64,000 nucleotides of DNA from Turritopsis dohrnii (lineage: Eukaryota; Cnidaria; Hydrozoa; Anthoathecata; Oceaniidae), in the NCBI GenBank assembly GCA_027922465.2, contig BQMF02000292.1, forward strand, positions 434,001-498,000. The letters run 5' to 3'. The notes beneath the pieces are model-generated. The model did no database searches. It was not told the origin of the DNA and saw only the letters and a list, made by a program, of their open reading frames with translations. Below are positions 4,162 through 58,576 of this stretch, piece by piece. Position 1 is the first letter of the stretch. The number at the start of each line of letters is the position of its first letter. The position numbers were made by a program, and so were the translations under genes.

Positions 4162-4564
4162 AGTGATTCCGAATGCGAACTATGTCGTAAGGCTTTGCGG
4201 ATCATGACGTGATATGACTGCAATATGGTGGATATGTAATAGTGTTGGATACTGACACGAAAAGAAACGTTTCTCCAAATTGTGTACTTACAGGTGTACG
4301 ATGATTATTGTTTGCTTACCCCGTCTAAGATATCCTACTCGCAGTGCCATGTGGAAGGGGAATAAGTATAATAAACGATAACGAATACCAAATATCTTCT
4401 AGATGAGTGGAGCCCTCGTATATACATCTGCATGCTGGGCCACTAAGTTATACAAGCAAAACTTACGGCACCGAGCCGTGATAAACAATAACAAGAGTTC
4501 TCTACATGGTATAAAACGAAAAAAAAAACAAACTGCATCTACTACGCCAACTGTTCTGAATCAA
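4162..4564. other. Region between gag and Helitron; no gene
   Basis: About 400 bases lie upstream of gag on its strand. This should be the leader and any 5' LTR remnant of the retrotransposon, but I found no repeat pair in the window to prove an LTR. No ORF of note. Confidence 0.5.
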
Positions 4565-13630: not shown

Positions 13631-15800
13631 ATGGCTTCCGAAGAACAGAAGAAATTAGTTGTGAATACACTCACTACATTGGTTAATAATGTATTTGGTA
13701 ATGTAAATAACGAGGATACTAATGCGAAGGAAAAAGAAGTAAAAGAAGAACTTCACTCTCTTTTTCCGAGTATAAACAGTCGAAGTAAGTAATGTTGTTT
13801 CTTTGTTGTTTCATTTTTGAGGGAAAGCAGACATTTTCAAGTTCAGATCAAGTTCAGATCAAGATCAAGCTGAGTTCAAGGTCAGACATGTTCATGTTCA
13901 GATCATGTTCAAGCATTAATAAAGTCCTTTCTCCACAAAAAAACTAAAATTGTATATATATATAGTTCTGTCCCTGACTTCCTTAGCTAAATTAAAAGTA
14001 ATAAATAAAAAATGTCAATGGTCGTTGCGATATGTAAAGAATAATAATGCTGTGGTGGGTTGACTTGATGATAATTTGTTTTTTTAGGGCAAAATCCAGG
14101 GGTAAGTTCTACTTCTACAAAGGTAAGGAGTCAGGAGTTTTCGACGTACTTCTTCTAAGAGACGACCAGTCACCACAAGTAAACCTCCACGGGGAGCAGA
14201 AACAATAAAGGATATTTTTCTCATTCCAAGTCCGCACATTGAGAGAGTTCCAAGAAGGAATGACCGTAAACAATACTACACTAACAACATCTGCAGTCAG
14301 GTTAGTTGACTAGTGATATTAGTAAACGTTTTTTTGGGATCGGAAATTCTTGTTTGTATGAAATAGTGTGGTATTTATCACTTCTTATGATGCTGTATTT
14401 AAACAGATATGTTTAAATAAACATCCCAATTTTACTACAAGGGATACTTTCTTAATAGTACTTCTGTCATTCTTACTTGAAGTTCCTTTCAAACATTTTT
14501 AGACTTAAAGATGAAATGAGTGCCGGTGATATCAAAGCTGAAATAATTGAAAGGTTTTCAGGCTATGAAAATTTAGAATTTGAGTTTTTGTCGACAGTGG
14601 AAGACCATTTAGTTGTACCCAAAGTGCTTGTTTGGGATTTTCAAACTGTAAAACATATCTGCAAGAATGGTCCTTTGTGTATACAAAGCTTAAAGAATCT
14701 TGGAATTGGGTGCATTAATAAAACACTCAAATTACAATTCTTTTCGACAATAACATCATCATCAGAGTCCGATTTAGAGGAAGCTTTTCCAGCAAAAGTG
14801 GAAATAAAAAAACCAATAGTAACTGAAAAGAAAACCAGCTGTCCATTAATTATTAATTGTCCAATTTGCTATAAGGATTTTCCTGATACTCAAATTGAAG
14901 AGCATGCGGCAAATTGTGTTGAAACATCTGATCATAGATCTTCCATCTTGGACTATGAAAAAGCCTTGGTTCACTGGTACTAATTCTCTACATGTAACAT
15001 TCCTGGGGGAGTCTGGTGTAGATGAAGGTGGTCTTTCCAGAGAATTTTTTTCAGGTAACATAATACTAATTGCATGCAATATGTCACATTTTGCTGTGAC
15101 AATTTTTGAAATTTATGACTTTTTTTAGTTGCTTTGGATCAAATGAAGCAGTCCTTGTTTTGTAATGGCGTACCAGTGAGGAATACCATGTTGCTGACAA
15201 ATAATTCGTTCTTTTCTGCTGGACTTTTGATGGCTTTGTCTATCCTTCACTGTGGGAAGAACCCGAACATATTGAGTGAATGGTGCTACCAGTATATGAC
15301 GGAGTGGGATATCACCACAAACATTATTTTGCCAGATACATTCAGAAAGAGAAGTGATATAGCCAAGGTAACATGACTGAGACTGATAGAACCATCTCTT
15401 GGTTGATTTATATATTTTCCATTCCAAATATTTTTTGTATTTAGCTGGTTGATTCCAAAACTGTTGAGGAGTTCAGATCAAATTTACAAACTGATGAAGC
15501 TGGCTTGCTGTTAACTAAAATTGGATTTAGAGGTCTAGTGTCAAAAGTAGAGCTCGCTGAACGAAATGATATTTTAAAGTAAGATTTTAAAACTATTTCA
15601 TTTCTATAATGTAAGAGTTTCGTTCTATAAAGCTTCAGTGTGATAATTTAAAAAAAAAGAAAATTGTGACAATTTATTATGTCATTACAATAATAATATT
15701 GCTTTTTAGCGCTGTATTCTTTAAAGAAGAAATTGAGCCATGAATTGCTCCTTTACAGCAACTGATGGAAGGATTAAATGTGAAAAGCTTAATGATGTTA
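13631..15800 (+). pseudogene. HECT-domain E3-ligase-like gene (G2E3-like), spliced, broken
   Basis: Exon 1 (13631-13794) begins MASEEQKKLVVN and ends at GTAAGT. An S/R/K-rich part follows at about 14150-14300 (RRTSSKRRPVTTSKPP, then IPSPHIERVPRR). Exon 14503-15054 carries a C2HC finger (CPICYKDFPDTQIEEHAANC, UBZ-like) and the start of the HECT-like domain (VTFLGESGVDEGGLSREFF). Further exons are 15129-15367 (LFCNGVPVRN, NNSFFSAGLLMALSI) and 15445-15578, then 15710 on. This matches the invertebrate G2/M-phase-specific E3 ligase-like family, which attaches ubiquitin. A frameshift near 14985 and an in-frame TGA near 15740 break it, before the catalytic Cys region, so it is probably non-functional unless these are assembly errors. 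Confidence 0.72.
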
Positions 15801-15930
15801 TGATGTTATGCTTAATGATGGCATTTCTAAAGTTGGTAGTGATGTATATACACCAACAAAGGGTTAAAAAATAAATATTATTGTCACGATATAATAAATA
15901 AACATTATTTTATTTTTATACGAAATCAAA

Positions 15931-16014
15931 ATGCCGGTATATGGATACGGAAGACTGGGTGGTGGTCGTCGCAAGCGTCGACACAGACGACGCGATAGAA
16001 GAGGACGATCCTGA
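15931..16014 (+). CDS. Tiny Arg-rich core-like peptide
   Basis: A 27-residue frame, MPVYGYGRLGGG followed by an almost uninterrupted run of Arg/Lys. The RLGG-G segment fits the adenain cleavage pattern (L/M/I-x-G-G or x-G). Such peptides in adenovirus-like particles bind and condense the packaged DNA. It lies 42 bp upstream of the protease start. It is too short for a homology call on its own; the assignment rests on composition, the GG site and the neighbour. Confidence 0.5.
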   Translation: MPVYGYGRLGGGRRKRRHRRRDRRGRS

Positions 16015-16056
16015 ATAAAACGAAATGATAGTATGGATAATTTGACATTATAAGAA

Positions 16057-16840
16057 ATGGCAAATAATAGTGGTGATGAAAATGACGACGGTGCAGGTAT
16101 TTTAGAACAAGACATATACAAATTTATTAAACAACATGGCGGGAAATACATGAAATTTAATTTTATTGGTAATTTAGCAATAGAAGACTGGAAACATCGG
16201 TGCCATTTGCTATTGTAAATACAGATCGACGAGATCAGCCGGGTACACATTGGTTTTCTTTATGTAAATGCGATGACGGATTATTTATGTTTGATTCTTT
16301 TGGTCTGTTTGGCTTTAGGAATTTCATAGAGACAAACGATTGTGAGAAAATACATTCTTATTTTAAAAATTTACCACCGCACGATAAACAAAGTAGTTTT
16401 AAAATATGGAACGATTCTGAAATTTCTCTTTCGAAACTAACATTTAATGTTGGAGAATGGAAGAAAAAAATCGTAATAATAATAAATACGACAAAACTTT
16501 ATCGCCGATGGCTAATAATTTCATGAAATTATTGTTTGCTTTTTCTAAATTGTGTGACAAAAGGAATTGTGAAGTTGTAGTGTGGATTGTTAACAATTGC
16601 ATACAAAATATACGGAGTTCATATTGTGGAATTTTCCAGTTAATGACATATTATGAAATTTTGAATCCATTAAAATCGGTTGAATACAGTGAACAATCTA
16701 CATTTACATCGCAGAATATGAAAGCTGTTTTACGCATGTTATTTAAATCTGGTAGTAAAAGTGCGTTATTAGAAAACGATTCTAAATGTCAATTATTTGT
16801 AGACGATTTTAATATATCGGGAAATTTTAAAATTGTATAA
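16057..16840 (+). pseudogene. Adenain-like cysteine protease (PRO), frameshifted
   Basis: Three successive frames carry one protein. The N-terminal frame (16057-~16197) has an acidic start and DIYKFIKQHGG. The second (from ~16200) has FAIVNTD and GTHWFSL, with the catalytic His at 16248-16250, then LFMFDSFGLFGF. The third (~16457-16840) has NCIQN, giving the oxyanion Gln, and SSYCGIF, with the catalytic Cys at 16625-16627. This His-Gln-Cys order and spacing is that of adenain, the maturation protease of adenoviruses, Polintons and adintoviruses. The two frame changes (near 16198 and 16455) disable it or reflect sequence errors. The stop lies 3 nt before the Helitron insertion point. Confidence 0.75.
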
Positions 16841-16843
16841 ATA

Positions 16844-19290
16844 TCTTATTATAATAATCCGCGCTGTGTGTCACACTTTTATTTTAGAGAGTGATATATT
16901 TAGTTTTATTTTACGGTCAAAACCTTCTTATTTTTTCCCTTTTCGTCGTAAAACCACGCCAAAGCGAGAGTGATTTTTTTGATTTTTCGCGATTAGTATA
17001 TGCTCCTCCGTTTTGTTATTTTTGGCTTGCGCGGTGGAAATCAGCCGAAAAACGTCTTTGGAGGAGTGCGAGCAATGCAATGTTAATCGTTCGAAATTTG
17101 TCAACGATCATTTCGTGAGCAAGAAACTTCGCGAAGAAGACGTGTTTCTTTTTGTATACGAATATTTTGATTTAAATTTGATTGTTTTAGGCAGCAAATC
17201 GACGAAAGAACTGATGAAGAAACACAGGTTTGTATGCACGAAGGTATTGTTATTATTATAAAACGTTTTATTATCGTTTGTTTACAATGAAAAATCATGT
17301 TTAGATATACAGAAGAAGTGCAGTGAAGTTTTTAAAAATTAGCTGCAGAAAGATCGAACGAACAAAAGGTATTATTATAAAACTTTAATACAGAAGAAGT
17401 GCAAGAAGAAGTGCAAGTTTTTAAAAATTGGCTGTGCAGAACGATAAGACTTTTATTGTTTAATAATTTAGATTAATAAAAGAACAGGTTTTTAAATGTT
17501 TGTTTACGTTTTAGTTATCAAATATCGCTATACAGAAGAAAGTGCAGTGGAGAAATGCAGTTTCATGTTTATTTACACAGTAAGGGATGGTTTTAATTTA
17601 GTTTTGAAAGATTAATTGATTTAGCTTTGAGTGGATGTCTCAGTTATTCTGTCGTTTAGAATGTGTATATGCTGCTGGATGAAAAGGAAGCCGAGAGAAA
17701 TTTGTTTTGGTAACGCGCGCTATTATTACATTAAAAATGGTCCTACAGCTATGAATGTTTTTATTTCTCATGACGCTGTGGAAGTGGGGAATGTGTTATG
17801 CTGTCTGATTGTTTCTATTGTATCTAATTTATATCGATGCTTGATGCTTTTGTCTGCCTGCCAAAAAGTACAAAATCTACTGGAAAATACAGAAAGTTTA
17901 GCAGTTTTTCCAAACGAAGAGAGCAGTTTTATGTATTTCACTTAAAAAAAAATGGTAGCGAAAGTGTTTTATAAATACCTATGTATGTTTGTGCTGGAAA
18001 GTAAATAAAGTATTAGTAATTTGTTTATAGGTATGAATATAGAAGTAAAGAGTTTAGAAGTGTTTGAAAATGTCTACAGAAGATGATCAATGCTGTTTAG
18101 TTTACTAACATGTGAATTGGCAGTGAAAGGTATCCCATTTTGTTTAAAGTTCAGCTAAAGTTAAAATAGTATAAATCTATTTAGTTATAACACAGTTGGT
18201 ATGCTGGATAAATAAGAATAAAGGGTTGTTTAACTGTTGTGAATTAGCCAGAGGAGATTTTAACTCAGATTAAAAATGTGGTTGTTTTCAATTTTTTATA
18301 AACTCTTTAGATATATAAATTCTGTCATCACGTTTGTGTTTTTGATTATTATTCATAAGGTAGATGTGAATGGATTATGTATTTAAGAAGTTCATTAGTT
18401 ATTACTGTGCAATGAAATGTTTATGCATTATTTTGTGTTATGGTAATCGTTTACGTACCTGGGTATATATATAAGTTTGGCATTATGATTTTATTTGTGA
18501 GTTTTTATCTTCTGGGTAAATTTTTGTTTTAAGGATAAATGCGTAGTTGAATTTCACTTTTTGTTGTTGTTGTTTATTTCAATATTCTTATAGCATGATT
18601 AGGTTTTCGGTATTACAGTATTACAATTACTATTACGGTGTTTTGTTGTTTTGAGTTATTGTTTTTAGGATAAATGCGTAGTTGAATTGCATTTTTTTTT
18701 TTGTTGTTGTTGTTGTTGTTTATTTCAATATTCTTATAGCATGATTAGGTTTTCGGTATTACAATTCAAGTATTAATTTTTTAGGTAATAATAAAAAAGA
18801 AGCATAAAGAAATGAAACTCATGGTTTTAATCATGACGTTGATGGTTTTGGGAAGAACAGACTATATATCGTTTCAAAAATTCATTAATGGTTGCTGTAT
18901 AATGTAACTTCCGCACGAAAGAAACACAGTTGGAAGGTATCAATTTGTTTTCAATTCACATTTTGTAATGTTATTCAATGTTTGGTTTCGTATGTCTGGG
19001 TAAACAGTTCTGTGTTATATATTGCCATTTTTTTACATTAAAGTTACTTCTCTTCTGCGTATAAATATATTATTCTGAGCCATGTTGCTATTTGTTTCTG
19101 TTTTTAATCTTCTGAATGTAATAACAAATTAATGCCTGAAAAGAAACTTTTATATACACGAGTTAAATTCTGTGACACAACGCATACTGAACATGGGTGG
19201 CGAGTGACGCGTATGTACCACAGGAATGGCAGATTTGACCTAATGTTTTCAAAGTTAAGTTCGGTAAAAAGTTTTTACCCGGGATACTAG
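16844..19290 (+). mobile_element. Non-autonomous Helitron with chimeric 3' end
   Basis: Starts A|TCTTATTATAATAATCCGCG at 16844 and ends with the GGTAAAAAGTTTTTACC hairpin then CTAG at 19287-19290. The stretch at ~17950-19220 is homologous, in inverse orientation, to 51260-52360, where the same body ends in the family B GCCGCC hairpin instead. Here only the first part of that terminus (GAACATGGGTGGCGAGTGACGC, ~19190) remains, followed by a family A end. No convincing protein: the 104-residue ORF at 17631-17945 has no recognisable domain. Internal AGAAGAAGTGCA repeats lie at ~17310-17550. Confidence 0.85.
18531..18775 (+). repeat. Direct tandem duplication (~130 bp x 2) in Helitron
   Basis: 'AGGATAAATGCGTAGTTGAA' followed by a TTG run and 'CATGATTAGGTTTTCGGTAT' occurs at about 18533 and again at about 18668. 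The TTG tract differs in length between copies. A related single copy lies near 9080. Confidence 0.8.
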
Positions 19291-20117
19291 TCTACTTATA
19301 CTAATCCGCAATCATGCATACCACTTTTAATTTAGAGAGTGTTTTGTTTTTGTTTTTTTAATGGTCAAAATCTTCTTAATCGTGGTCATATAGCGGCAGT
19401 TCGACCAGTGAAGAAACCCTCAAAATGCCTATTTTTCATCATTTGTTTTGACACGTGATCGCAATTTCGCCGTTTTTATTGGTTGCTGAAATCGGAAAAA
19501 CTATAGCGACGACCTTCGTTGAAAAAGTAAACAAATTAAGTATTTTATTCATTGCGGTTACGCTCCAGAAAGAAAATACAATAAAATATAGACAATCGCA
19601 ATTGTCTATGGTATCCAGTTATCAATATAGTTGTCAATCAAGTTTATCAGTGAGTTTATCAAGTTTACCAGTTTATCGAAAGCGAAAGCGAGGTAATAAT
19701 AATGTCCTTATTACTTTTAAAGATGGCAAACTCCACGAAGGTTTTTCCAACCCAACCGTAAAGACTACCTACCTGCCTACCTACCTATCTAAGAATTTTT
19801 ATATCTGCATTTATTCAGGTTCATTTGTTCCTTGCTGCGTAGTAAAGAGAGAGCAGAACGTAGAAAGACAGAGTAGAAAGAAAGGTTTGTCACTGAAAAC
19901 TTAGATATTAGTATACATATCTGTTACGTGTTACACGTCAATTTTTTCGCTTTCTCCTAGGTTCTTTAGCTATCTGTTTGGTGTTATTTCTCCTCCAGTG
20001 TCTGTTATTTTGTAGGAAGAAAGGTTTGTTTTCGCTTCCACCAGGTTGTTCTGTGCATTTTTCACTGGGGTGGCTATTATATATTTCTTTTTTTTGTGCT
20101 GTTAGTGTTTCTGTGTT

Positions 20118-23100
20118 GTGATGTTTAATATAAGAGGCACTAATATTATTCCTGGCTTCCAAGCAATTTTTAGGAATGGTCAGTTTGTTTTGCAGCCACC
20201 TGATCAGCAGCAAATTCGCTCTGTTATTCAGCGTAGGCATGCAAATGAGGATGTAGCTGAAGCAAGGCGCCAACAGCTTCAGGCAAATAACATCCATCCA
20301 TTATCTGAAAATGAGAGACTTAGAATCAATAATGCTCAAAGGCGTGTTGAATACCGTCAAGATGAAGAGCCAGTTGAAGGATTAGTCAGGCGAAATGAGA
20401 ATGCACAACATATGAGGGCTAGGCGGGCTGTTCGACGAAATGCAAATCGTGCTGCTCGACAAGACCAAATGCCTGAGCTACATTACCTTGGTGCCATGGA
20501 CAAGGTCTGTCAGTTTTGTGGTGCTAAGATGTTTGGTGACGAGACCAATTTTAAGTGCTGTCACAATGGTAAAGTTCATTTAGATGGCATTTATTATCCT
20601 AATGATCTTAAAGAACTTTTAGTAGGTGATTCTAATCAAGCAAAGAACTTTCAAGAAAACATTCGAAAGTTCAATAGTTCGGTTGCTTTTGCTTCGATGG
20701 GTGCGAAATTGACTGTACCGCCAGGTCGTGGTCCGCCAGTTTTTCGTATTAATGGCCAGGTATGTCATCGAACAGGTAATTTACACCCACCACCGGGTAT
20801 TCCTCCATCCTTTGGTCAATTATATATCTATGATGGTATGGATGCATTCAATGAGAGAATGGCAAGACCAGAAAATCAAGGTTGTTCTCCCGAAGTCATG
20901 CAAACTTTGCAAGACATCATTTTAAGGGAGAGTCCATATGCAGCTGCTTACAAACACATGGGTGAGGTAGAAGCGGAGGAATTTCAACTTGCAAATGAAC
21001 AAAATCGTCGCCCATCTGAGGTAAATGGAAAATATGATGAAAATTAATAATTAAAAATCTTTGAAGTGATATTTACAGATCTTTGCTATTGTTTTCCAGG
21101 TCAGAATGCATTTGAGAAGTGGTGGTGACCGGCGTCGATACAATCTACCTCACCATGATGAAGTAGCTGCTGTTTTTGTTGGTGAAGATGGTGCACCACC
21201 ATTGGCTCGAGACATCGTTGTTTACCCTCGAGATAGACCATTGCAGGATTTGCCTGTGCATTCGCCTAATCTCGATCCGATGGTGTATCCTGTATTTTTT
21301 CCAAGAGGAGAGTTGGGTTGGAGTTCCGACATCCCTCATGTAGCAGAATATGCAGCAGGCCAGCAACGTCGTACAACTATGCTGCAATATTATACTTATA
21401 GGTTTGCATTGAGAGATGCTTTTAGCCCCATATTAAAAGGTAAAAGATTACTTCAACAATATGCTGTAGATTGTTACTGCAAAGTTGAATCTGACCGTCT
21501 TAATTATATTCGTCAAAACCAGCGCAATTTCTGTGTTGAGCAATATCAAGGGCTCATTGATTATCTTGAGAATGTTGCAGAAAACCGTGGCCTTCATGCA
21601 GGCAGACCGGTGATTCTTCCGTCTTCTTTTCAGGGTGGTCCTAGGGCCATGCAACAGAATTATCAAGATGCTATGGCTATGGTTACTAAAATGGGCAAGC
21701 CAGATCTGTTTTGCACATTTACGTGCAATCCCAAATGGAGGGAGATCACGGAAAACTTAGATAATGAGCCTGCACATTATCGTCCGGACTTGATTACACG
21801 TGTTTTCAATTTGAAATTAAAAGCTCTTTTGGAGGATATAAGTAAAAATGGAGTTTTGGGAAAAGCCATTTCTCATTTGTATGTTATTGAATTTCAGAAA
21901 CGTTCTTTACCTCATGCTCATATTCTTATCCATTTAGCACAAGAGGACAAACTGCGTAATGCTGACGACATTGACAGCTTAATCTCTGCTGAAATACCAG
22001 ATCCTGAACAGGAACCAGAACTTCATAATATCATCAAGTCATGTATGATTCATGGTCCCTGTGGGAATGCTAACCCTAATGCAGTTTGTATGGGAGATGA
22101 TGGCAACTGCACCAAGGATTTTCCAAAGCGATTTTGTGAAACGACCCAAATGAACGCAAATGGGTATCCACTCTATCGCAGACGTAACAATGGCCGTACT
22201 GTGAGGGTAAGAAATGTGGACTTAGATAATCAATGGGTAGTTCCATACTGTCCGTGGTTGTCCAAGAAGTATAATGCTCACATAAATTTGGAAGCATGTA
22301 CCACGATCAGGAGCGTGAAATATCTCTTTAAATATGTTTACAAGGGACATCATCGTGCTAATGTGGAGATTAATGAACGTTTGGAACATGAAGAAATAAA
22401 AACATTTCTGGATGCTCGATATGTCAGTGCACCTGAAGCTTTATGGAGAATATTTGAGTTCTCTATGCATGAAAAATCGCATACTATTAAGCGATTAGCT
22501 GTTCATTTACCTGATCGCCATCAAGTTTATTTTAGACCTGGTGAAGAGGAGGCAGCTGCTGAAGGGGCATTAAAGGATAGTCACTTGACAGCATGGTTTA
22601 ATCTGAACGTAGATGATCCTGATGCACTGCGGTATCTTTACTCAGATATTCCGTATCATTATGTTTTTCATGATAAGGAGAAAAAACGGAAAAAACGAAA
22701 AAAGACATTAAAACCAATAGTTGCTCGGTTATACAATGCTCGACCGTCAGAAGGAGAACGTTTTTTTCTACGAGTTTTGTTGTTGCATGTTGCAGGTGCT
22801 ACGTCTTTCAATGGAGTTGTTTACGACACATTCCGAGAAGCATGTATTGCCAGACGTCTTCTGCAAGATGATGCAGAATGGCACAATACATTGGAAGAGG
22901 CTTCAACGTTTCAAATGCCCCAACAGCTTAGACAACTGTTTGTTACTATTTTGACTCACTGTGAGCCCTCTAATCCTTTTGAATTGTGGAATACATTCAA
23001 GGGGAATCTGTGTGAAGACTACCTTCGAACATTGGCTGTTGCTCAAGCTGAGCAAAGGGTTTTGGGTTATATTGATAATGTCCTGAGACAATTTGGTATG

Positions 23101-24603
23101 ACCTTAACACAGTTTAATCTTCCTGAATTGGTTCAACAGGTTGCTCAGGAAGAAAATGATGTGAATATTTACATTGACAGGGCGGACCAGGTAAGGCCTC
23201 TGCTTAACGAACAGCAGTTAGTTGTGGCAGATGCGATTTTGTCTGCAGTTTCAAATGTGCGTGATGGTTTAGCACAAGTTGAAACATTGTTTTATCTAGA
23301 TGGACCAGCTGGCACAGGTAAGACTTTTACATACAATTATGTTATTGCAGCATGTAGAGCCAGAGGTTGGAAAGTTGCTACAGCTGCATATACAGGTATT
23401 GCAGCCACCTTACTGTCTGGTGGTAGTACATTGCATTCATTATTTCGTTTGCCTGTTCCTGTTTTAGAAAATAGCGTATGTAATATAACACCAGCATCAA
23501 AACATGCGGAATACCTTCGAAGTGTCGACCTGTTTCTGATCGATGAAGCAACTATGGTTTCTACGCACATTTTCCATGCTGTGGACAGATTACTCAAGGA
23601 TATTTGTGGCAGTGATGCACTTTTTGGTGGCAAGGTTCTTTTATGGGGTGGAGATTTTCGTCAGTGTTTGCCGGTTGTGAAAAAGGGAAAGCCAACCGAT
23701 GTTATTGAAGTTTGCTTGACCAGTTCTGTGTTATGGGCATCACTGTCGAAATACTCTCTCACTGAAAATATGAGAGCCAGACCAGAAGAGCAAGAATTCT
23801 GTACTTGGCTGTTACAACTTGGTAACGGTGAACTTCTAACCAAACAAAACGAACCTGCTAAAGGTTCCATCGAAATTCCTGATTGTTGTGTTGTTCCTAA
23901 AGATACTTCGATTATATCTGTTATGTACGATGGACTGGAGCCTCACGAATATGCTACCACAGCCATTCTGACACCGACAAATGAGCAATCGTTGATCATT
24001 AATAATGAGGTGTTGGACAGACTGCCTGGAGATGCAGTTTGTTATTACAGTGCTGATGAAGTGGCGTGTGACGATGAAGAGGAGCAGCAAAACTATCCGG
24101 TTGATTTTCTGAATAGTATTACACCATCCGGTATGCCTCCACATTGTTTGAAACTTAAAGTTGGGGCTATTATTATGCTTTTGAGGAATCTGAACATCAG
24201 GAAGGGTCTTTGTAATGGCACCCGCTTGATTGTTCGTGAATTGTCGCATAACTTTATTAAGGCTGAAGTTTTGACAGGGTCAGCAGTAGGGGAAATGATT
24301 TTTATACCTAGAGTACAATTGTCACCGTCCGACACAGGTTTGCCTTTTGTATTGAAGCGCAGACAACTTCCTATTCGGCTGGCGTACTCTTTTACTATTA
24401 ACAAAAGTCAAGGTCAAACATTTGAAAAAATTGGTTTGTTTTTGCAGAGACCGTGTTTTTCACATGGACAGTTGTATGTTGCCTGTTCAAGGGCAAAAGC
24501 ATTTGGTAATGTTAAAATCAAAGTTGCCAGTACGGGTAAGCAAGGTTATATTAATGGAAAGATGTATACTCAAAATGTTGTCTTTCCACAGGTGTTGCTG
24601 TGA
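20118..24603 (+). CDS. Helitron Rep-helicase (RepHel), one intron
   Basis: Two exons, 20118-21020 and 21100-24603, joined in phase 0 across a 79-nt GT..AG intron, give about 1468 residues, the usual animal Helitron length. The N-terminal part has a Cys-rich finger (VCQFCGAKMF...KCCHNGKV, ~131-155) and the YIYDGMDAFNERM segment. The Rep domain has FCTFTCNPKW (~505), the HUH motif LPHAHILIHL (His ~573/575) and the two-tyrosine YLFKYVYKG (~709-715). The SF1 helicase has Walker A GPAGTGKT (~1036-1043), LIDEAT (~1114), TENMRARP and INKSQGQTFEKIG near the end. All catalytic residues are present with no stops, so the protein should nick, unwind and transfer one DNA strand in the nucleus. The ATG at 20118 is the first in frame; 20121 is the next. 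Confidence 0.94.
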
Positions 24604-24649
24604 ATGTTGTGATTGTTGTGGCCTATTCGGTTATATAACAAAATAGCAT

Positions 24650-24930
24650 AAATACCTACAGTAGAGGCTACAGTTGATGTTTTTGTGGCTTCTTCTGTAC
24701 GTCAGCCACTGTTTGATGTTGTGGCTTATTATAAGTATAGTTTAAATACCTACAGAAGTTGCTGCTGTTGATAGTTGTTGTGGCTTCTTCTGTACGTCAG
24801 CCACTGTTTGATGTTGTGGCTTATTATAAGTTTAGTTTAAATACCTACAGAGTGGCTGCTGTTGATAGTTGTTGTGGCTTTTTCTGTATGTCAGCCACTG
24901 TTTGATGTTGTGGCTTATTATAAGTGTATC
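24650..24930 (+). repeat. Tandem array, 93-96 bp unit x 3
   Basis: Units begin AAATACCTACAG at 24650, 24743 and 24839, each containing GTTGTGGCTTATTATAAG and the inverted pair GTGGCT...AGCCAC. A partial unit precedes the first, just after the Rep-helicase stop codon. This could act as the transcript 3' region of the Rep-helicase gene. Confidence 0.88.
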
Positions 24931-25070
24931 GTAAACATTTGGTGTGGCCACTGTTGAAATTGTTGTTGTTTGGCAACTTTGTACCTAAATGAACAGTCTG
25001 TATGTTTTGTTGTTTTTTTAGGTGGAGTACAAGTCCCATTGACTTACGTTCTCGCCGTGTACTCCGTTAC

Positions 25071-25110
25071 CATGAATTGTTCCTGAAGCAAGCTTTGTGA
25101 ACAATTCATG
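25071..25110. repeat. 12-bp perfect inverted repeat
   Basis: CATGAATTGTTC (25071-25082) and GAACAATTCATG (25099-25110) with a 16-nt loop, preceded by a polypyrimidine-AG acceptor-like site at 25020. It lies ~90 bp upstream of the start codon of the micro-exon gene, so it may be in its 5' leader. Confidence 0.7.
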
Positions 25111-25196
25111 AACCAAAAGTCAGGGCATGCTCCATATTATCTTTCCATGATTGTAACTTTTGTTTTTTCTTCATTTAGTGATATAAAATAATTACC

Positions 25197-26663
25197 ATGG
25201 CTGGGGTTGATCCAATGGATTTGTCCCGGGGTAAAATATTAACTTTTTTGAAACTTTCTATTATTGGATTTCAAATACTTAAAGCAAATTGATTTCATTG
25301 TAGATTCAGAAGAAACATTATTAGGAGGAGGTAAACTTTTGCTTTTTTCTGTAGCACATTCATTTTATCAACGAGTTATTCTCTTTTTTATACTGTTTTG
25401 TCTATTTTATATGTTGTCATTGATACAGATAGCACAGAAGAAGTTGAAAAAAGTAAGAATTTTTATTGGAGTTACTTTGGAATTTCAATTTTCCGTTGAT
25501 GTTTTTTTTAATCCAGTTTTTGTCATCTCCTCATTCAGTTGTTTTGATTTTAGAGTTTGATGTATAATAGCTATGTTTTAAACCTTTTTATTTAGATGAT
25601 GCTTTGCCGACAGCTGATGGTAACAGTTGATATGTACTAATGTTTCATTGTTAATGTCACATGTTTAACCTTCACTATTACCTGATTGCATTTCATTTAG
25701 CTGCAACAATATCAGCAACAGATACCAAAAGTAAGCAACATTTTTGTTATGCAGATACTATTGCAATGCCTATTTTTTATTGTTTTAACTTATAACATTT
25801 TCCTTTCCTTTGTCAGATTCTGTAAAATACTACGTTTCAAACCTTTTTATTTAGATAATCCTTTGCCAACAGCGGATTGTAAGAGTTGATACATATTAAT
25901 GTTTCATGGTTAATGTCACATGTTTAACCTTCCCAATTATCTTATTGCATTTCATTTAGCTGCAACAACATTGGCGACGGCTACCAAAAGTAAGCAACGT
26001 TTTTGTTATGCAAATCCATGTTTTTCTTTTTTAGTTTTATTGTATTTCCTTATAACATTTTCCTTTCCTTTGTCAGATTTTGTATCAAACACTGGTGGTG
26101 AAAGTGGTAAGGATTTCAACTGGAATTCCTTTCAGTCTGTTTTATAATGCAGTATTGTATTCTGGGACATCAAATTGCTTCATATCAAATTGCTTGATAT
26201 CAAATTGCTTGAGTTTCGCTGTATGAAGATTTAAGATATTTAGTATAGCTGCAACTTCTTCAACTTCAACATTATCAGTACAAAATGTTTTAACTTTCAC
26301 AATCAATTTTCATTTAGCTGCATCATCATCAGCATCTGCAGCCGCAAAGAATGGTAATATATCTTACAATTACAAGGTTAACATAATATAGGTCAAAAAA
26401 TGATTGTGTCTCATAATTAAATTTTGTTTCTTTAGATGGTGCCTTGGCTGCTACAAAGGAATGTAAGTTTCTATCAGTATGAATTTTATCAATTTGAATA
26501 TCAACCTTTTGCTTCTTTACTAATAGAAGTTATTTCAACAATATATTGTAGATTCGTACCAAGACTTCATAAGATACCGGCGGAATCATCCCGGCCCCCG
26601 GTCTCAGGCGGCATTCCGGGTATGGCGGAGACTTGGGGGTCGGGACCATCCCGATTTTAGATG

Positions 26664-26694
<31 letters not shown>

Positions 26695-27769
26695 GATGCA
26701 GCAAGTCCTCCAGCAACCACCAGTGTCTGGCAATGTAGTGCCTGAAAACAGGCGCTACACTATATATAATAATTTTGCCCCATCAGTTTTCAATTCATTT
26801 AAGTGAATACACAGTTCTTTGTGTTAATCATTTGGTTGAGCCTTAGGTGAATGAATATCTGACCCACATTTTCATAAGGGCACCTGTAAATTTAACCTTG
26901 AATGCCTAAGGTCTTCATGACAACATAAATAGACTCATTTTAAATGAATTGAAAACTGATGGTGGTATGAAACTACCATACATTGAGATAAGTTCTTCTG
27001 AAAAGTTTCTTTGTTTTTCAATAACAATCCGTTTTTCAATAAGCAATAGCACTATGACACAAGCAATTGTATGGTAGTTTCGTAATGTTTGTTATCTTAG
27101 TTAGTTTGTTTTATTAGAAGAAAGTTATTTGCTCCAATAACCTTTGCCTACCTCTTTCATCACAATACTCTGACATTCTAGCTTTCACACTGTCAATTTA
27201 CTAACCTAAGATTTGTGTTTAGTTATGTCTGTCACTCTATCAATTAGTGTTGCATTAGTGTCGAACAGAAATTTTAAAATTTTAAAAATATTCTTTCCCA
27301 GTCAGCACATTTATTAAAAAATATCTGCGAAGGAGTGCATTTCTAAAGAAATCTACACGTTTTCACTGAGGATGCTCTCCATCACAGTGATTCTTTGATG
27401 ATTTTGCACACTGGGTTACAGATCTGATTAATTGAGTGTCATCTCATATGTATTTCTTCTTTCTTTTAAATGGTGTGGCATTTGTCATCGTAAATAAAGA
27501 TTAACAGCTTAGTTTCCAATCAGTTTATAAGGCTGCCTTAACATGATTATTTGTTCTCTGCATGCAGTAGATGATTATAGGTTTAGACACATTATAATAA
27601 GATTCAGATGTTTACAGTTAGTTTAGATGTGAAGGGAAACAATGGTGAGTCAAATTCAAACCCATCATTCAAGCTAATTTTGTTGCTACTCACAACTTAT
27701 TTTTTGATTACATTTACAGATTGGCAGCAACGAATTATTGCAGACAACGTCCGTAATCATTGCTCATGA
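25197..27769 (+). CDS. Captured micro-exon gene in the Helitron
   Basis: A start codon in good context (TACCATGG) opens a 34-nt exon (MAGVDPMDLSR). Further exons with GT..AG borders are 25304-25330, 25429-25452, 25596-25619, 25701-25730, 25855-25878, 25960-25989, 26077-26106, 26318-26353 and 26436-26462. The last two are 27618-27644 and 27720-27769 (stop). Every internal exon is 24, 27, 30 or 36 nt and phase 1-1, so any can be skipped in frame. Joined, they give a short acidic Asp/Glu/Ser/Thr/Ala-rich peptide (DSEETLLGG, DSTEEVEK, AATISATDTK, ALAATKE) ending in DWQQRIIADNVRNHCS. I do not recognise a family. Exons between 26552 and 27617 are uncertain, because a retroposed insertion and a MITE lie there. 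Intron retention shows capture at DNA level. Confidence 0.6.
25581..26090 (+). repeat. Tandem duplication of a three-exon block
   Basis: Unit 1 (~25581-25839) and unit 2 (~25840-26090) share AACCTTTTTATTTAG, the 24-nt exon, TGTTTAACCTTC, the 30-nt CTGCAACAA... exon and TTTTCCTTTCCTTTGTCAG. In unit 1 the third exon is lost (ATTCT then GTAAAATAC), while unit 2 keeps it (26077-26106). The micro-exon gene therefore has grown by tandem exon duplication. Confidence 0.8.
26569..26688 (+). mobile_element. Short GC-rich poly(A)-tailed insertion
   Basis: About 90 bp of very GC-rich DNA (CATCCCGGCCCCCGGTCTCA onward) is followed by an uninterrupted A run of about 29 nt, in the middle of AT-rich intronic DNA. 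This is the look of a SINE or severely 5'-truncated retroposed copy. I found no clear target-site duplication. It sits inside or next to an exon of the micro-exon gene (26552 on) and may have destroyed it. Confidence 0.6.
26778..26965. mobile_element. MITE, sister of the split copy at 6166-8115
   Basis: Inverted ends CCCCATCAGTTTTCAATTCA and TGAATTGAAAACTGATGGTGG, 188 bp, non-coding, inserted in the 3' half of the Helitron. The flanking DNA on the right (to ~27985) is homologous to that flanking the other copy (8116-8930). Confidence 0.75.
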
Positions 27770-28742
27770 TATTTATTTCATCAAACAGTTTGTCTATGCG
27801 AAGTTCGAAATAATATCGTTATCGTTACCTCACCAACTTAGTTTACAGTTCGATGATGTATGAAATGGCTGTTTAAATGTCGTAGAAAATGGTTAATGCT
27901 TAATCAAAACGTTATTTAATACACCTTTCTGATGAACATATTTTATTTTACTTTTGTATTGCAATAAGTAATAATTTATAAAATATATGCCTTTGCTGAC
28001 TACAACAGACATGCATTCTTTATTAGCACCTGTAAAAACCTTTTACACTGGATGCAGGTCTTTTTGAACAGGGTTTTTGAAAAAGTTTTGGTGGGATGTG
28101 TGATACTAAGATATTATTTATGTTATCTTATGGTTATTAAATCTGAATTATTCATGGGAATTTCTGTTGCTGTTCTACGAAACCTGAATCTTTTGTATTA
28201 TTGTACCACTCATTTTACCTCAGACATTGCCAGAACCTTATTTTCATGGACTTTTAATATATTCTTTTAGGTTAATATTATAATAAGATGGTTGCAGTGG
28301 AATGTCATGGTTTAAATCATGATGTTGGTTTTGTTGGTGAAGATCATTATATTCATTGAAAGAATTTGTTATTCTGATATTGCATTAGTGGAAAGAATCA
28401 TCACTGGAAGGTATCAATTTCTTCATCATTGTAGTTTTGTATATTTAAGAATAAGGTGTAGTTATAAAAAGCTAATTTGTATACCTAAGTATAAAGTTAT
28501 TATGTTGATGTTTGGTTCTTTCCAGAAAACATTCTTATTATACTACTTTTACTTTGCTACTTTTACTTTTCGTGAACTGGACGCATGCTGAACATGGGTG
28601 GCGAGCGACGCCGCCTGGGCATATTTTCTGTTTCCAATTCAGTGATTTAATTTTTCGTCACGCGGTTCGCACACAGGAACGCAGGATTTGACACATCCAT
28701 TTCGAAGTTAAACTCCGTAAAAAATTTTACCCGGGATACTAG

Positions 28743-29306
28743 TCTTATTATACTAATTCGCGTTGTGCATCCCACTTTTATTTTAGAGAGTGATATATTT
28801 GTTAAATTTTTACGGTCATCGTCCTCTTATGTGCGCGTAAAACCACGTAGAGGCGAGAGACACTTTTTTCACGATCATTCCAAAAGCACGTGGCATCATT
28901 TGACGTCAGTTTTTTATGATCACGGGGAATCATTGCATTGCAGCCCCAATCGAACGCGACGTTTTTGGAGAAATATCTCGAGAACCAATAGGGATAACTG
29001 ACGTTTTTTGGGGTCGGCGATACGGGTGATGGGGTGGCGCATCATTTGGGCCTAAATTTTATTTGGTACTGCGGATATGACGTCATCGAAATCTTTGATC
29101 AGCGATATCTCTCTAACGGTTGGTCGTAGCGAAACGATCCCATACATTTTTTTGATCAGTTTTTCGAGCTCTACAACATGGGTACACTTTTGAGTTGCAA
29201 TTCTGTGATTTATTTTTTCGTCACGGGGTACGTACACGGGAATGATGGATTTGACCTAATGTTTTCGAAGTTAAGTTCGGTAAAAAGTTTTTACCCGGGA
29301 TACTAG
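28743..29306 (+). mobile_element. Small non-autonomous Helitron, family A
   Basis: TCTTATTATACTAATTCGCG begins directly after the CTAG of the autonomous element; it ends in the GGTAAAAAGTTTTTACC hairpin and CTAG at 29303-29306, followed by T. It is 564 bp and non-coding, although short ORFs exist. It contains the CACGGGGAATCATTGCATTGCA module seen in the 1.5-kb family A elements and shares its ends with 38980-39551. Confidence 0.9.
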
Positions 29307-29383
29307 TTTATACTTATAAAAGAATAAATTTCACAAAATTGTAATTATTTTTCTTATTATTGTGAAAGAATAAACAAGTAAAG

Positions 29384-30166
29384 ATGAATTGTTCTAATAT
29401 TTGCAAGCATATTAAAACATTATATCTGGACGAAATTTATGAAAATGAAAATAAAGGTGACAAAATAATTAGAATGTATTGTTACAATATGGGAGATAAT
29501 TACAAGATAAAGAAAACAAAGAATGTGACAGTGGCAAAAATAAGTATTAATAAATATCTTGTCGCATGTTATAAGTGTTTATATTTTGCTATAAACAGTT
29601 ATAAATTCGAGAAATGTTATGAAAAGTATCATGATACAGAGGTAAATATATGTATATGTTGTAAGCGCAGCATGTTCAGTGATTATAGTAGAGCAACGTA
29701 TTCAGCATATCATTTCGATATATGTGATCGTTACGAGGAACCATATAAATTAACATGTTTAACGGCAGATAACCGAGTAAGAATATGCGAAACGTGTATT
29801 TACGAAAGTTTAATTAACAAACAAGCAAATACATCGTACGACAAAGTTCTATTGAGACAATTACACGAAACATGTTCTAAAGCGACAAACAGATTGTATT
29901 GTATTTGTGGTCAACATTTGGGTAGTGCTCAACCAACTTTAATTCAATTTATTTCTCATCACAGTCTACTTGAATTATGTAAAAAAATATATCTATGTGG
30001 TGATCTATGGAAATACTTAGCAGCAAGTTATAATATTAACAAACAAGCTATTAAATGTATTAATAAGTCGGAAAAAGGTGTTAAAAAAGTTATTGAAATG
30101 TTTAATATTATAAAAACAACACAGTTTTTACGAACCAGCTATTATAAAAACAGCTGCTGCTGCTAG
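29384..30166 (+). CDS. Cys-rich protein of the virus-like element
   Basis: 260 residues starting MNCSNICKHIK, with a TATA-like TATAAAAG about 70 bp upstream. Cysteines are paired through the protein (CYKC, CICCKRS, CETC, CICGQH), suggesting two or three zinc-binding modules between residues ~60 and 185, then a helical Lys-rich tail ending in Cys-Cys-Cys. The frame is fully open with strongly AT-biased codons. I do not recognise the family. Its position as first gene after the Helitron insertion and before the other small genes suggests a viral nucleic-acid-binding or regulatory protein; that is inference. Confidence 0.6.
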   Translation: MNCSNICKHIKTLYLDEIYENENKGDKIIRMYCYNMGDNYKIKKTKNVTVAKISINKYLVACYKCLYFAINSYKFEKCYEKYHDTEVNICICCKRSMFSDYSRATYSAYHFDICDRYEEPYKLTCLTADNRVRICETCIYESLINKQANTSYDKVLLRQLHETCSKATNRLYCICGQHLGSAQPTLIQFISHHSLLELCKKIYLCGDLWKYLAASYNINKQAIKCINKSEKGVKKVIEMFNIIKTTQFLRTSYYKNSCCC

Positions 30167-30196
30167 TGTTGTAAAAGATTAACATTTTTTATTACA

Positions 30197-30439
30197 ATGG
30201 CAGAAAAACAACAAGCACAACAAAATAATAAGATTGAAGAAGCGATTAATTTTCGTAAAAAAGTACAAGAAAACAGAAAACAAAAAAGATTTACATTATC
30301 TTATTTCATAAATTCTGACGGTTACAACAAATGTTCTGCCTGTGGACAACTTATGCACGCAATTATTCAACTTACAATCTATATATCGCACATCGTGGGA
30401 TCTGTACAAAGTGTAATTTTACATTGAATAGATACAACA
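30197..30439 (+). pseudogene. Small zinc-ribbon-like protein, probably frameshifted
   Basis: The open frame starts MAEKQQAQQNNKIEEAINF, a helical basic segment, then has CSACGQ near residue 47. A second CxxC (GICTKC, at about 30389-30406) lies in another frame, so a one-base shift between ~30340 and 30385 probably separates the two halves of a zinc ribbon. Only 30 bp separate it from the upstream gene. Function unknown; nucleic-acid binding is likely from the ribbon. Confidence 0.45.
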
Positions 30440-30452
30440 TACAAGTTCAAAT

Positions 30453-30926
30453 ATGATTAAATTAACTATACATCGAAAAGACGGTGAATTATTATTTTAC
30501 GATGAAATAGCAGAACGATTTTTACAAGATTACGAAATTATAATTACAAGTTGCCAAAACAATGATTGTGAAACATGTAAAGAAGACAACGAAAGAATTA
30601 AAAAAGAACAAGAAAAAGAAGAAGAAAGTGAAAGTGAGCAAGAGGACAATGGAATGTTAGAAGAAGAACAAGATCGATACGACGACGAAAGATGGTATAC
30701 AGACAGAGACGATTATTTACGGTGTGGACAATGCAACGAAAAGATATGCAATAACGAGTACAATATCTGTACAGAATGTTTTTGTGGTCGATGTAAAGAA
30801 TTCTTAACTGACGTGGACACAATCGGTTATGATTTACGTAAGAAATGTTTGTACGAAACATGCCCATTAACTGTAAACATTTCAAAAACGGAAGACGATT
30901 GTATATGTTATAAACATAAAATATAA
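30453..30926 (+). CDS. Acidic, Cys-rich small protein
   Basis: 157 residues: a folded N-terminus (IKLTIHRKDGELLFYDEIAE), a first CxxC pair (CQNNDCETC), a Glu/Gln-rich linker (~50-75), then a Cys-rich module (CGQCNEKICNNEYNICTECFCGRC) compatible with a RING-like or double zinc site, and a C-terminal CICYKHK. Open throughout. It could be a regulatory or ubiquitin-related viral factor, but the RING spacing is not clean enough to say so. It is packed 4 bp before the next small gene. Confidence 0.55.
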   Translation: MIKLTIHRKDGELLFYDEIAERFLQDYEIIITSCQNNDCETCKEDNERIKKEQEKEEESESEQEDNGMLEEEQDRYDDERWYTDRDDYLRCGQCNEKICNNEYNICTECFCGRCKEFLTDVDTIGYDLRKKCLYETCPLTVNISKTEDDCICYKHKI

Positions 30927-30929
30927 TAG

Positions 30930-31004
30930 ATGAACTGTCAAGAAATATTTATTGCTGTATTTTTAATTGTTTGGTGTGTCATTTTATTTGCTATATGGTT
31001 ATAA
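30930..31004 (+). CDS. 24-residue single-helix membrane peptide
   Basis: Starts MNCQEIF and is followed by ~17 uninterrupted hydrophobic residues (IAVFLIVWCVILFAIWL) to the stop: one transmembrane segment with almost nothing else. Many small DNA viruses encode such peptides, so it is kept despite its length because it lies in the spacing expected between packed genes. Confidence is moderate because a chance frame of this size is possible. Confidence 0.4.
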   Translation: MNCQEIFIAVFLIVWCVILFAIWL

Positions 31005-31058
31005 AAAAAACGACGTCATTTACACGAAACAAGACGATAAACGAGCTGTTAAGAAATA

Positions 31059-31211
31059 ATGCGCGGTGGTTTTATAAAAGCACAACGTGCACGTCGTCGT
31101 GCACGTCGTCAAGCACGTCAAAATCGACGATGAAAACAAAAAAAAGGTGGGTTTCTTGGTGCATTAGTTGGACTGGCATTACCAGTAGTGTCGTATTTAT
31201 TAAATAAATGA
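31059..31211 (+). pseudogene. pX/mu-like basic core peptide with premature stop
   Basis: The first part (24 codons) opens with MRGGF, an adenain-type site, then is almost all Arg/Ala/Gln. After a TGA at 31131-31133 the same frame continues with a Lys-rich link, GGF, and a hydrophobic segment (LGALVGLALPVVSYLL) to a second TGA at 31209-31211. A basic DNA-binding half followed by GG and a hydrophobic tail is the architecture of the adenovirus X (mu precursor) protein. The internal stop breaks this copy. The frame before the stop could alone be translated as a peptide. Confidence 0.55.
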
Positions 31212-31243
31212 AAATAAAAAAAAATTAATCATTTGTAAACGAA

Positions 31244-31390
31244 ATGAAGAAAAGAAAACATCGTGGTGGTTTTTTTGATTGGAAGCCATGGTATTTACAA
31301 AAAGGTCGTGGTACTTATCGTAAACATTATCGTCGTTATCAACATCATAAGACGACGACAAAAAGGCGGCTGGATGTCAGCAAAAACTAA
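31244..31390 (+). CDS. Basic aromatic core-like peptide
   Basis: 48 residues: MKKRKHRGGFFDW, aromatic residues (WKPWYL), then a Lys/Arg/His/Tyr-rich tail (RKHYRRYQHHKTTTKRR). The HRGG-F junction again fits an adenain-type cleavage site, so the mature protein would start FFDW. It is 32 bp after the preceding frame and the last recognisable gene of the cluster. DNA condensation or capsid-core linkage is inferred from composition. Confidence 0.5.
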   Translation: MKKRKHRGGFFDWKPWYLQKGRGTYRKHYRRYQHHKTTTKRRLDVSKN

Positions 31391-32528
31391 TTTTTTTAAT
31401 TAAAATAAGAAATTTATTGCATCAAGACTTGATATTTTCAGAATTATTTAAAAGAGACAACACTAGATTTTAATTAACGCGCCGCTTGTAACCCGTTAGT
31501 AGCTAGTCGAAGTAAAGTCATTACTTCAAGCAACATGTTGTTTATTTATCAATTACTATTTTATTGCAACTACTATTTACTTTCTCATTAAATATTTATC
31601 ATTTACCAACTACTAACTAGTCACCGGATCTCTTTTAACATTTTTAACTAGGTACCAATCTCTTTTAACAACTTGATAACTAGTTACCAATCTCTTTTCA
31701 CTCGGGTCCATTGTTACAAAAAAATTTGGAATTTCTTATGTAAACAGCGGCACCCTTTCATCTTTCGATTACAAAAGAACGAAGTTATAAAGAAGTATTA
31801 GGAATGCCACCCCCCCTACCGCATATCATCACATGATATGGCAATTAATCTTGGTATGATGAAATTGGAGTTTGAGTTTGAAAAGACATACACATAGTAG
31901 TAGTGTAACTTCATAATATTGTGTAATTTACATTGACCAAGATGAATTATCTCAGAATAATTTTTAGGATGTAAATATCGTGTTTGTTTACATTTCCATA
32001 ATGAATTGAATTAGTTCATAGAATGTGACTTTCATGTTTCGTTTAGAAATAGTATAGAATTAACATAGATTAGAATGACCAATCAGGAAAATTTTATATA
32101 AAAGCAATATAATTTTTCATGTGATAACAAAACTTTATTACTGTATGTAAAATACTTTTTGATTTCTTCAAAGTTACCAAAAGAAGTCTTGTGAATGTAT
32201 TCGGAATGCAGAGTGAAAAACAATTGAAGAGAGGAGAAGAACAGTAAGAAGAAAGAGGTGGAGGAGAAGAAGAAAGAGAAAGAAGAGGAACGATGATTGG
32301 AAAGACAGGCAAGAAGGAAAGGGTGTACGTCACATACAGTAAGAAAACAGGCATATGACAAATCAACATGTGTCAGTGCAATTTTTTCCACTTGTGCAGA
32401 TGCTGGTTCGACCTATGTCCCCACATCAGGGTGGACGAGGTAGAAAGGTTTTTTATCAAAATTAATGTAATTTTCATATCAATTTTTTTTAATGTTATAT
32501 TGTTCCAAATATATTGTTGTTATCATCT
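31391..32528. other. Spacer; purine-rich tract; no gene
   Basis: AT-rich DNA with a strongly purine-biased stretch at ~32210-32300 (GAAGAAGAAAGAGAAAGAAG and similar). The minus-strand ORFs at 32083-32391 only translate that tract. 'TTACCAATCTCTTTTAACA'-type words recur at ~31620-31700. Confidence 0.5.
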
Positions 32529-44887: not shown

Positions 44888-44937
44888 AGAACTGCATTTT
44901 TCTTTTGTCTTTTTTACATTTATATATATTCAAAATG

Positions 44938-58112: not shown

Positions 58113-58576
58113 GTCACAGTTGATATGTTTCTTTGCAGTTAAGGTGGTACACCAAAAACTAAAAAGGCCAAAATTCGCATATTTTTCAAAATTTCAAAAA
58201 GCTTATTTTTAAGTCATTTAAGGTATGTAGATTCCGAATTTAAATAAATATGTTACGATTTTTTAACGTATGATGCCTAAATTTACTATTTTTCATAGCT
58301 AAGTAAAGGATCTAACTTCCTAGCAATGGCCTTAGCAACCGTTTTTTCCTTATAACTCAAGATCTACATCATCTAAAGACTTCATTTTTTCTTCCCCTGC
58401 AAACGGTATGTTGGATCTATCTGCTTTTCGAAAAGTTAACTATTAGTCATTGCCTGAACCACCAAACTTCGTTGTGAAAGTAGAGCTCCAGAGGCAAGTC
58501 GTTTGAAAAGACCAATGAAGACTTGTAATTTAAAAACATGAATATTTTATGCAATTTTATAATGTATTTGATGAAA

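Follow-up and report, generated by a model that had tools for sequence, protein, structure and literature searches.

Adintoviruses, a proposed family of animal-associated, integrated viruses, encode a B-family DNA polymerase (PolB), an rve integrase, an adenain protease and core proteins of the pX/VI type (Macc), accompanied by small extra genes, some of them zinc-finger genes, and a Hexon recognisable by BLASTp comparison with known adintoviruses is their defining criterion (PMC11071296). How adenoviruses relate to integrating viruses of the Polinton type is an open question on which the family described here bears. We have analysed a 64,000-nucleotide stretch of the Turritopsis dohrnii genome (contig BQMF02000292.1, positions 434,001 to 498,000; hereafter the window), in which a preliminary description had recognised a compact, virus-like cluster of tiny genes around an adenain-type protease. 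With a probability of about 0.9, this cluster is one copy, dead and truncated at its 5' end, of an endogenous virus of the Polinton/Maverick-adintovirus type that is present in multiple copies, and three tandem Helitrons split it between the protease gene and a Cys-rich gene, cysA. Homologous copies, a common gene order, matches to Peptidase_C5 and PolB, low ratios of nonsynonymous to synonymous divergence (dN/dS), inverted repeats, near-identical copies elsewhere and Helitron ends are all observed in support, and weak matches suggest an integrase, an ATPase and pX-like core peptides. The preliminary description identified the kind of virus correctly and overlooked the Helitrons, the frame breaks and the longer relatives.

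The protease and the viral remnant

Both active-site blocks of a His-Gln-Cys protease with adenain spacing are present in the window, as first described, but not in a single open reading frame (ORF), the coding sequence being distributed over pieces in three frames. The blocks, G-x-H-W...F-D-S-F-G and Q-x6-C-G-x-F, occur once each when the window is translated in six frames (127,996 residues) and lie 356 bases apart on one strand. When ten window proteins were scanned against Pfam, the His/Asp piece matched Peptidase_C5 with an expectation value (E) of 2e-4 (1.6e-4 when trimmed) and 21.5 bits, above the curated cut-off of 21.3. The Gln-x6-Cys-Gly-Ile-Phe piece alone gave no Pfam C5 match and is 66-92% identical to proteases encoded as one ORF by relatives elsewhere in the assembly. 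Four intact relatives each encode the protease in a single ORF, with His, Asp, Gln and Cys invariant; three of the four exceed the Peptidase_C5 cut-off (E=2.6e-5, 1.8e-4 and 2.9e-6; 24.4, 21.7 and 27.5 bits) and the fourth reaches 13.2 bits (E=0.07). Of 177,635 PDB sequences, a profile of these four proteases matched three at E up to 10, each an adenovirus protease, with both blocks aligned. Judged by its motifs and profile matches, the protease is of the adenain type (Peptidase_C5). A Ulp/SENP identity was rejected, as no Ulp/SENP family (Peptidase C48) appeared among the matches of the window piece or of the intact relatives at E up to 10, a search in which HMMER filters drop most weak matches. 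No relative of the His/Asp piece was found in IMG/VR or in phage records, nor of the Gln/Cys piece in GTDB contigs; the protease motif pattern retrieved 23 stretches from IMG/VR, none of which was adenain-like when the translations were read.

DNA identity of 95-96% to three relatives (L032, L033 and L034) starts at 15812 and homology to L032 continues to 31832, at a viral terminus. The virus-like cluster described earlier is real, but by this homology its limits are ~15812-31831 rather than 15860-31400. All the genes lie on one strand, as reported. The viral part amounts to only ~3.56 kb and is split by the Helitrons at 16844-29306, which place 12,463 bases between the protease and the Cys-rich genes; the cluster is therefore not continuous, and its genes are spaced by a few to tens of bases only inside either half. 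On comparison with its relatives the remnant is the decayed, 5'-truncated right end of an endogenous virus and would represent roughly the final tenth of ~31-33 kb, the length that we infer for the whole virus, so that the picture of a compact cluster of tiny genes is not retained. A minimal, self-contained virus or satellite of ~3 kb, composed of protease, core peptides and Cys-rich genes and perhaps helper-dependent, would account for window genes that stand alone and compactly spaced, with no other viral gene recognised among the window ORFs examined. It is highly improbable nonetheless, because the window copy starts inside the 3' end of a gene for a 527-amino-acid (aa) protein and the homology of its relatives extends far upstream through more genes.

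The window copy is dead, as the His/Asp and Gln/Cys halves of its protease lie in different frames. Three segments present in L032 are missing from it, namely 138 bases in core1, ~50 bases in the 5' part of the protease gene and ~95 bases close to the cysA end, as is the whole region upstream of the last codons of the 527-aa gene, and it is broken further by a second frame change in the protease, a frame break in cysB and a stop in core2. Small indels are typical of long-read assemblies and three frame changes are of this same kind, as would be expected if the copy were intact and its breaks were errors of assembly. We consider this very unlikely: Helitron coding sequence within the window stays open over 4.4 kb, against several breaks in ~3 kb of viral sequence, and the copy is also short of the three segments and the 5' portion named above. 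The open Helitron ORFs beside broken viral ones suggest real viral decay.

The intervening DNA consists of three Helitrons arranged head to tail with direct CTAG/TC junctions, the ORFs of the middle one being open. Such junctions between adjoining Helitrons are known in bat and maize, and the window elements resemble described Helitrons in their 5'-TC, 3' hairpin and CTAG, target between A and T, and CTAG/TC junctions; they are unusual only in standing three in a row inside a virus (PMC4778049, PMC2267711). That the viral genes were captured and are carried as cargo by a Helitron is barely conceivable. Helitrons do lie between the two halves, and in three other copies the viral end abuts Helitron sequence, but none of the viral genes of the window falls within the termini of the three Helitrons, and in at least eight other copies the end is a sharp viral terminus with no Helitron sequence there. 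In those three copies it is the viral right end (L036 at ~8065, L037 at 7851, L042 at ~7853) that adjoins Helitron Rep/Hel sequence, the mirror image of the window.

Related copies and their upstream genes

A search of the 436-Mb, 891-contig assembly with the protease DNA located it at at least 24 loci, the window included. An isolated cluster without relatives was rejected on this ground, and the small ORFs likewise are not unique, the same genes being found elsewhere in the assembly. Among the other 23 loci, three are 90-91% identical to the window, thirteen 72-73%, three 69% and three 65-66%, and one is in two pieces (77 and 70%). Twenty of these were read (L032-L051), leaving aside the loci on C809, C392 and C34. 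The order capsid, core, protease, cysA recurs among them, with cysC next where found. ORFs remain open in many of the 20: the 527-aa gene (500 aa or more) in 14, the protease (270 or more) in 12, cysA (290 or more, one fused) in 17, cysC (120 or more) in 13 and core1 (60 or more) in 19. Protease copies on seven contigs (C265, C581, C809, C148, C392, C34 and C593) lie within ~7 kb of a contig end, near the start in C809, C392 and C34, as would happen where the assembly is broken by long, near-identical repeats.

Estimates of dN/dS are rough, many dS values being near saturation. The ratio is 0.03-0.06 for the 527-aa gene (computable in 3 of 10 pairs tried) and 0.10-0.12 for the protease in four pairs, with 0.27 in the closest pair. 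The core1 values lie in the range 0.06-0.23 with three exceptions (0.94 and 1.55 in two very close pairs, and one zero), and, in pairs with computable dS, the ratio is 0.17-0.40 for cysA and 0.32-0.49 for cysC. Low ratios and many open ORFs would also be expected of a viral protease and Cys-rich genes domesticated and kept by the animal host, which we regard as extremely unlikely: the window copy is broken, the genes of its relatives are conserved along with terminal repeats, and near-identical copies stand at different sites, a combination that fits selection during spread of a virus.

The copies end sharply. A right terminus, ...ATCATCATCA, is present in 11 of the 20 loci, and the DNA beyond it differs except in L036 and L042, which have Helitron sequence in common, and in L043 and L050, which show a 67% inverted match. 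A left terminus was located at C158:761630 (position 1870 of L058, reverse complement). Over 512 bases from this terminus it matches, at 84%, the right end of L036 in inverted orientation (near C158:728436), ~33.2 kb away across a stretch that was partly read, and inverted matches of ~0.5 kb connect it with several right ends; the left end is closer still to that of another copy, L049 (100% over 185 bases). The inverted terminal repeats are ~0.5 kb long and end in (TGA)3/(TCA)3. To the left of the C158 terminus the flanking DNA is similar to the window's Helitron 1 in the opposite orientation. The copy on C590 appears to span ~31.5 kb, its left terminus lying outside the stretch read. Two copies that differ in their right flanks, L037 and L038, agree at 99.5% over 7.87 kb, and a likeness this close at different sites indicates that the virus spread recently.

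Upstream stretches were read for two copies, on C590 (L052, L054, L056 and L057) and on C386 (L053 and L055). The C590 copy carries, on the protease strand, a B-family DNA polymerase (L054; DNA_pol_B_2, E=5.9e-8, 32.5 bits against a cut-off of 25.8) and an ATPase-like ORF with a P-loop recognised by eye. Both copies contain an rve integrase-like ORF (1.9e-5 and 1.7e-5), followed by a 770-aa ORF (as in L032) or its split counterparts, and both encode a long protein, a single 1534-aa ORF in L053 and in pieces in L052. The search for other copies carrying capsid, ATPase and PolB genes, proposed as a check in the preliminary description, was positive to this extent, with PolB and an ATPase-like ORF in one copy and an integrase-like ORF in two. 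The pairing of protease and core peptides, attributed from the outset to the adenovirus, adintovirus and Polinton kind, is borne out by Peptidase_C5, by PolB in one of the relatives and by the inverted terminal repeats. The very conserved 527-aa protein is the probable capsid protein. A PDB search with the polymerase piece gave no match, and IMG/VR held no relative of this piece or of the 527-aa alignment (searched with two peptide patterns only). OTU and chromodomain profiles gave no match at E up to 1 in L056:2994-5000, L052:5639-6796 and L053:6753-7541, a search that distant versions would escape. On the viral side, L057 also contains an ORF (2504-2998) whose zinc-finger-like pairs match zf-BED (0.003) and zf-C2H2 (0.028), neither reaching the Pfam cut-off.

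Several results weigh against assignment to this type of virus. PolB and the ATPase-like ORF were seen in one copy only, and seven kilobases upstream of the C386 copy contain neither. The ATPase-like ORF matches Pox_A32 below its cut-off (E=0.031), and its PDB matches are weak and are to ABC transporters, with no packaging ATPase. Both rve matches are below the Pfam cut-off (25 of 32.6 bits) and the integrase-like ORF matched no integrase in PDB. The 527-aa protein has no match in Pfam, PHROG or PDB and its structure model, at a mean confidence (pLDDT) of 34.1, is unusable for fold comparison; no penton was recognised in the upstream genes read. For the protease, the PDB matches of the profile (E=0.34-0.43) are not significant alone and the Peptidase_C5 match of the most distant member is the one at E=0.07. 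No target-site duplication was present at the one pair of ends compared, the longest common flank word being 4 bases.

Smaller genes and the remainder of the window

The three tiny Arg-rich peptides of the preliminary description, each with a GG, are present, but the first is the product of a shortened gene and the second is stopped in frame (Table 1). They rank second, third and fifth by Lys+Arg fraction among 570 ATG ORFs of 18-80 aa and are the only ones with at least eight Arg among the 14 ORFs listed. Four window ORFs, peptides 1 and 2 included, reach a fraction of at least 0.375, compared with 0-2 in 30 Markov controls; peptide 3 has 0.35. Intact core peptides of the relatives are 40-94 aa long, with an Arg-rich part and, in many, a GGF-hydrophobic tail, and core3 has no clear counterpart in L032. 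When four of these relatives' peptides were scanned against Pfam, Adeno_PX was the sole match of two (E=0.22 and 0.10), one gave two unrelated weak matches and the fourth none. These weak matches suggest a resemblance to adenovirus pX. The window sites LGGG/R and MRGG/F (cut at the slash) agree with the adenovirus cleavage consensus, whereas HRGGF and KKGGF depart from its P4 rule and QTGGF and QSGGF of relatives, judged by eye, also disagree (PMC7998265). Small ORFs with a cleavage motif are not rare (14/570), and the sites alone therefore prove little. One core-peptide gene, L032 7732-7962, is placed elsewhere than its counterpart L041 4141-4374. The two differ by a dS of 0.23, against 1.4 or more, or saturation, in the surrounding genes; the altered position and low divergence therefore suggest exchange of the gene between subfamilies. 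The 24-residue membrane peptide reported earlier is likewise present as an ORF and has full-length matches, 65-83% identical, in some relatives.

The Cys-rich small proteins are real as ORFs, at 260 and 157 aa exceeding the longest ORF (153 aa) in 1000 second-order Markov sequences of 29307-31400. Relatives of cysA are 298-343 aa. Judged by dN/dS, these genes encode real proteins that are more loosely constrained than the others. No convincing case emerged for the Cys-rich proteins being paralogues of one another, since in five comparisons between 15 and 208 of 500 shuffles scored as high as the real sequences. The C-terminal part of cysA has some look of a death domain, a reading that was dropped because neither the window protein nor those of four relatives had a Death match listed at E up to 10, and saposin-like PDB matches of cysA (E 0.05-0.07 with a profile, 0.23-0.36 with the window protein) were taken as chance matches of Cys spacing. 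Neither cysA nor cysC contains an LxCxE motif. No relative was found in IMG/VR with cysA and cysC or in GTDB contigs with cysA, PHROG and NCBIfam scans gave chance-level matches only, and the cysA structure model (pLDDT 31.6) is too poor for fold comparison. The 72-73% subfamily (L035-L043, L049-L051) has an extra 166-aa ORF between protease and cysA (e.g. L041 5553-6053), with a hydrophobic N-terminus, several Cys and no Pfam match, that is not in the window.

The window is animal-type DNA rich in transposable elements. Beside the virus, intron-separated ORF pieces at 14516-15810 have what we take to be the look of a HECT-type ubiquitin ligase; the three pieces scanned from this segment gave no HECT match in Pfam.

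Table 1. Coordinates of the viral remnant, the Helitrons and other elements in the window
Feature	Position	Strand	Basis and remarks
Whole viral remnant	~15812..31831	+	DNA identity to L032, L033, L034 from 15812; homology to L032 up to viral terminus
Last codons of gene for 527-aa probable capsid protein (…NDGISKVGSDVYTPTKG, stop)	15812..15867	+	Identical ending in L032 3139-4722
core1, Arg-rich, 27 aa	15931..16014	+	Shortened by 138-base gap relative to L032 (75 aa there)
Protease, N-terminal piece	16057..16218	+	Relatives' proteases
Protease, piece with His and Asp, other frame	16173..16526	+	Peptidase_C5 match
Protease, piece with Gln-x6-Cys, third frame	16448..16840	+	Motif unique in window; relatives
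Helitron 1	16844..19290	+	TC start, hairpin and CTAG end
Helitron 2; ORFs 20121-21047 (308 aa) and 21106-24603 (1165-aa Rep/helicase)	19291..28742	+	Ends; Helitron_like_N 5.8e-57, PIF1 1.1e-52
Helitron 3	28743..29306	+	TC start, hairpin and CTAG end
cysA, 260 aa, Cys-rich	29384..30166	+	ORF length against controls; C-terminal part altered by ~95-base gap relative to L032
cysB, zinc-ribbon-like piece, broken in two frames (30197-30427, 30319-30456)	30197..30456	+	Also two ORFs in L032
cysC, 157 aa, Cys-rich	30453..30926	+	Relatives 124-154 aa, open in 13/20 loci
24-aa membrane peptide	30930..31004	+	ORF reading; relatives
core2, Arg-rich, 24 aa, ends at in-frame stop	31059..31133	+	Related ORF L032 8067-8189 is one ORF, 40 aa
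GGF-hydrophobic tail, core2 frame beyond stop	31134..31211	+	ORF reading; relatives
core3, basic peptide, 48 aa	31244..31390	+	ORF reading
Right terminal region, probably terminal-repeat sequence	31444..31831	+	83-85% identical to L032 8283-8789; terminus like ...ATCATCATCA of relatives
Retroelement	~195-4179		ORF reading
rve piece	40936-41535		Pfam
Long interspersed element (LINE)	44857-47842		ORF reading
DDE_Tnp_4 transposase	49195-49782		Pfam
Mutator-like piece	58529-59509		Pfam

Proposed mode of action and comparison with known systems

The case that the intact virus works like an integrating, adenovirus-like virus is strong. Its integrase would insert linear DNA ended by inverted repeats and PolB would copy the viral DNA by protein priming, while the ATPase would pack it into a capsid made largely of the 527-aa protein. 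The Arg-rich peptides would condense the DNA and be cut at xGG/F sites by the adenain-type protease during maturation, and a role at membranes, like the one proposed for adenovirus proteins VI and X, is possible for their GGF-hydrophobic tails. The Cys-rich products most likely serve as zinc-binding accessory or regulatory proteins, which is the weakest step of the explanation. Combined, the data describe a multicopy family that joins, in one animal genome, an adenovirus-type protease, pX-like core peptides, PolB and an integrase-like gene. As two copies are 99.5% alike at different sites, spread is recent enough that particles or transcripts are realistic to look for in living animals. The Cys-rich genes, which appear to be under purifying selection, are unstudied as far as our searches reach, and no paper listed in searches of open-licence PMC text names such a virus family in its title or abstract opening. 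Tentatively, and with the odds somewhat against it, the family could be a lineage of integrating, adenovirus-like viruses that is undescribed and was active recently, ~31-33 kb long, with all recognised genes on one strand, (TGA)3-ended inverted repeats, a C5 protease whose cleavage rule has shifted to xGG/F, several pX-like core genes exchanged between subfamilies and a conserved Cys-rich accessory module without known relatives, linking Mavericks and adenoviruses.

The family likely belongs to the Polinton/Maverick-adintovirus kind. As in adintoviruses, it is integrated in an animal genome and has PolB, an ORF weakly like an rve integrase, an adenain protease, pX-like core proteins and small extra genes. 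It differs in that neither the OTU-like N-terminal domain of adintovirus PolB nor the C-terminal chromodomain of their integrase was matched here, the 527-aa protein matched nothing in the databases searched, and the inferred length of ~31-33 kb compares with 13.3-14.6 kb for Drosophila-associated adintoviruses (PMC8363768). Vertebrate Mavericks/Polintons have genes for PolB, integrase, ATPase, protease and capsid, to which PolB and protease genes and putative integrase, ATPase and capsid genes correspond here; both groups also show purifying selection on core genes, many decayed and some intact copies, and inverted terminal repeats with short repeated end motifs, (AGT)2//(ACT)2 in Mavericks and (TGA)3//(TCA)3 in this family (PMC8097293). 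Mavericks differ in having 6-bp target duplications, none being seen at the single end pair compared here, and two gene modules on opposite strands pointing to the centre (PMC8097293), whereas in the two copies read upstream every recognised gene is on one strand. Similarity to adenovirus proteases is limited to the active-site blocks, in which the order His-Asp/Glu-Gln-Cys and the distance of seven residues between Gln and Cys (115/122 there, Q-x6-C here) are alike, and the small Arg-rich core peptides with GG sites resemble adenovirus protein X (PMC7998265, PMC4246237). The many genes still intact in the related copies make this a good example of an integrating virus, although its kind is known and it is not entirely new.

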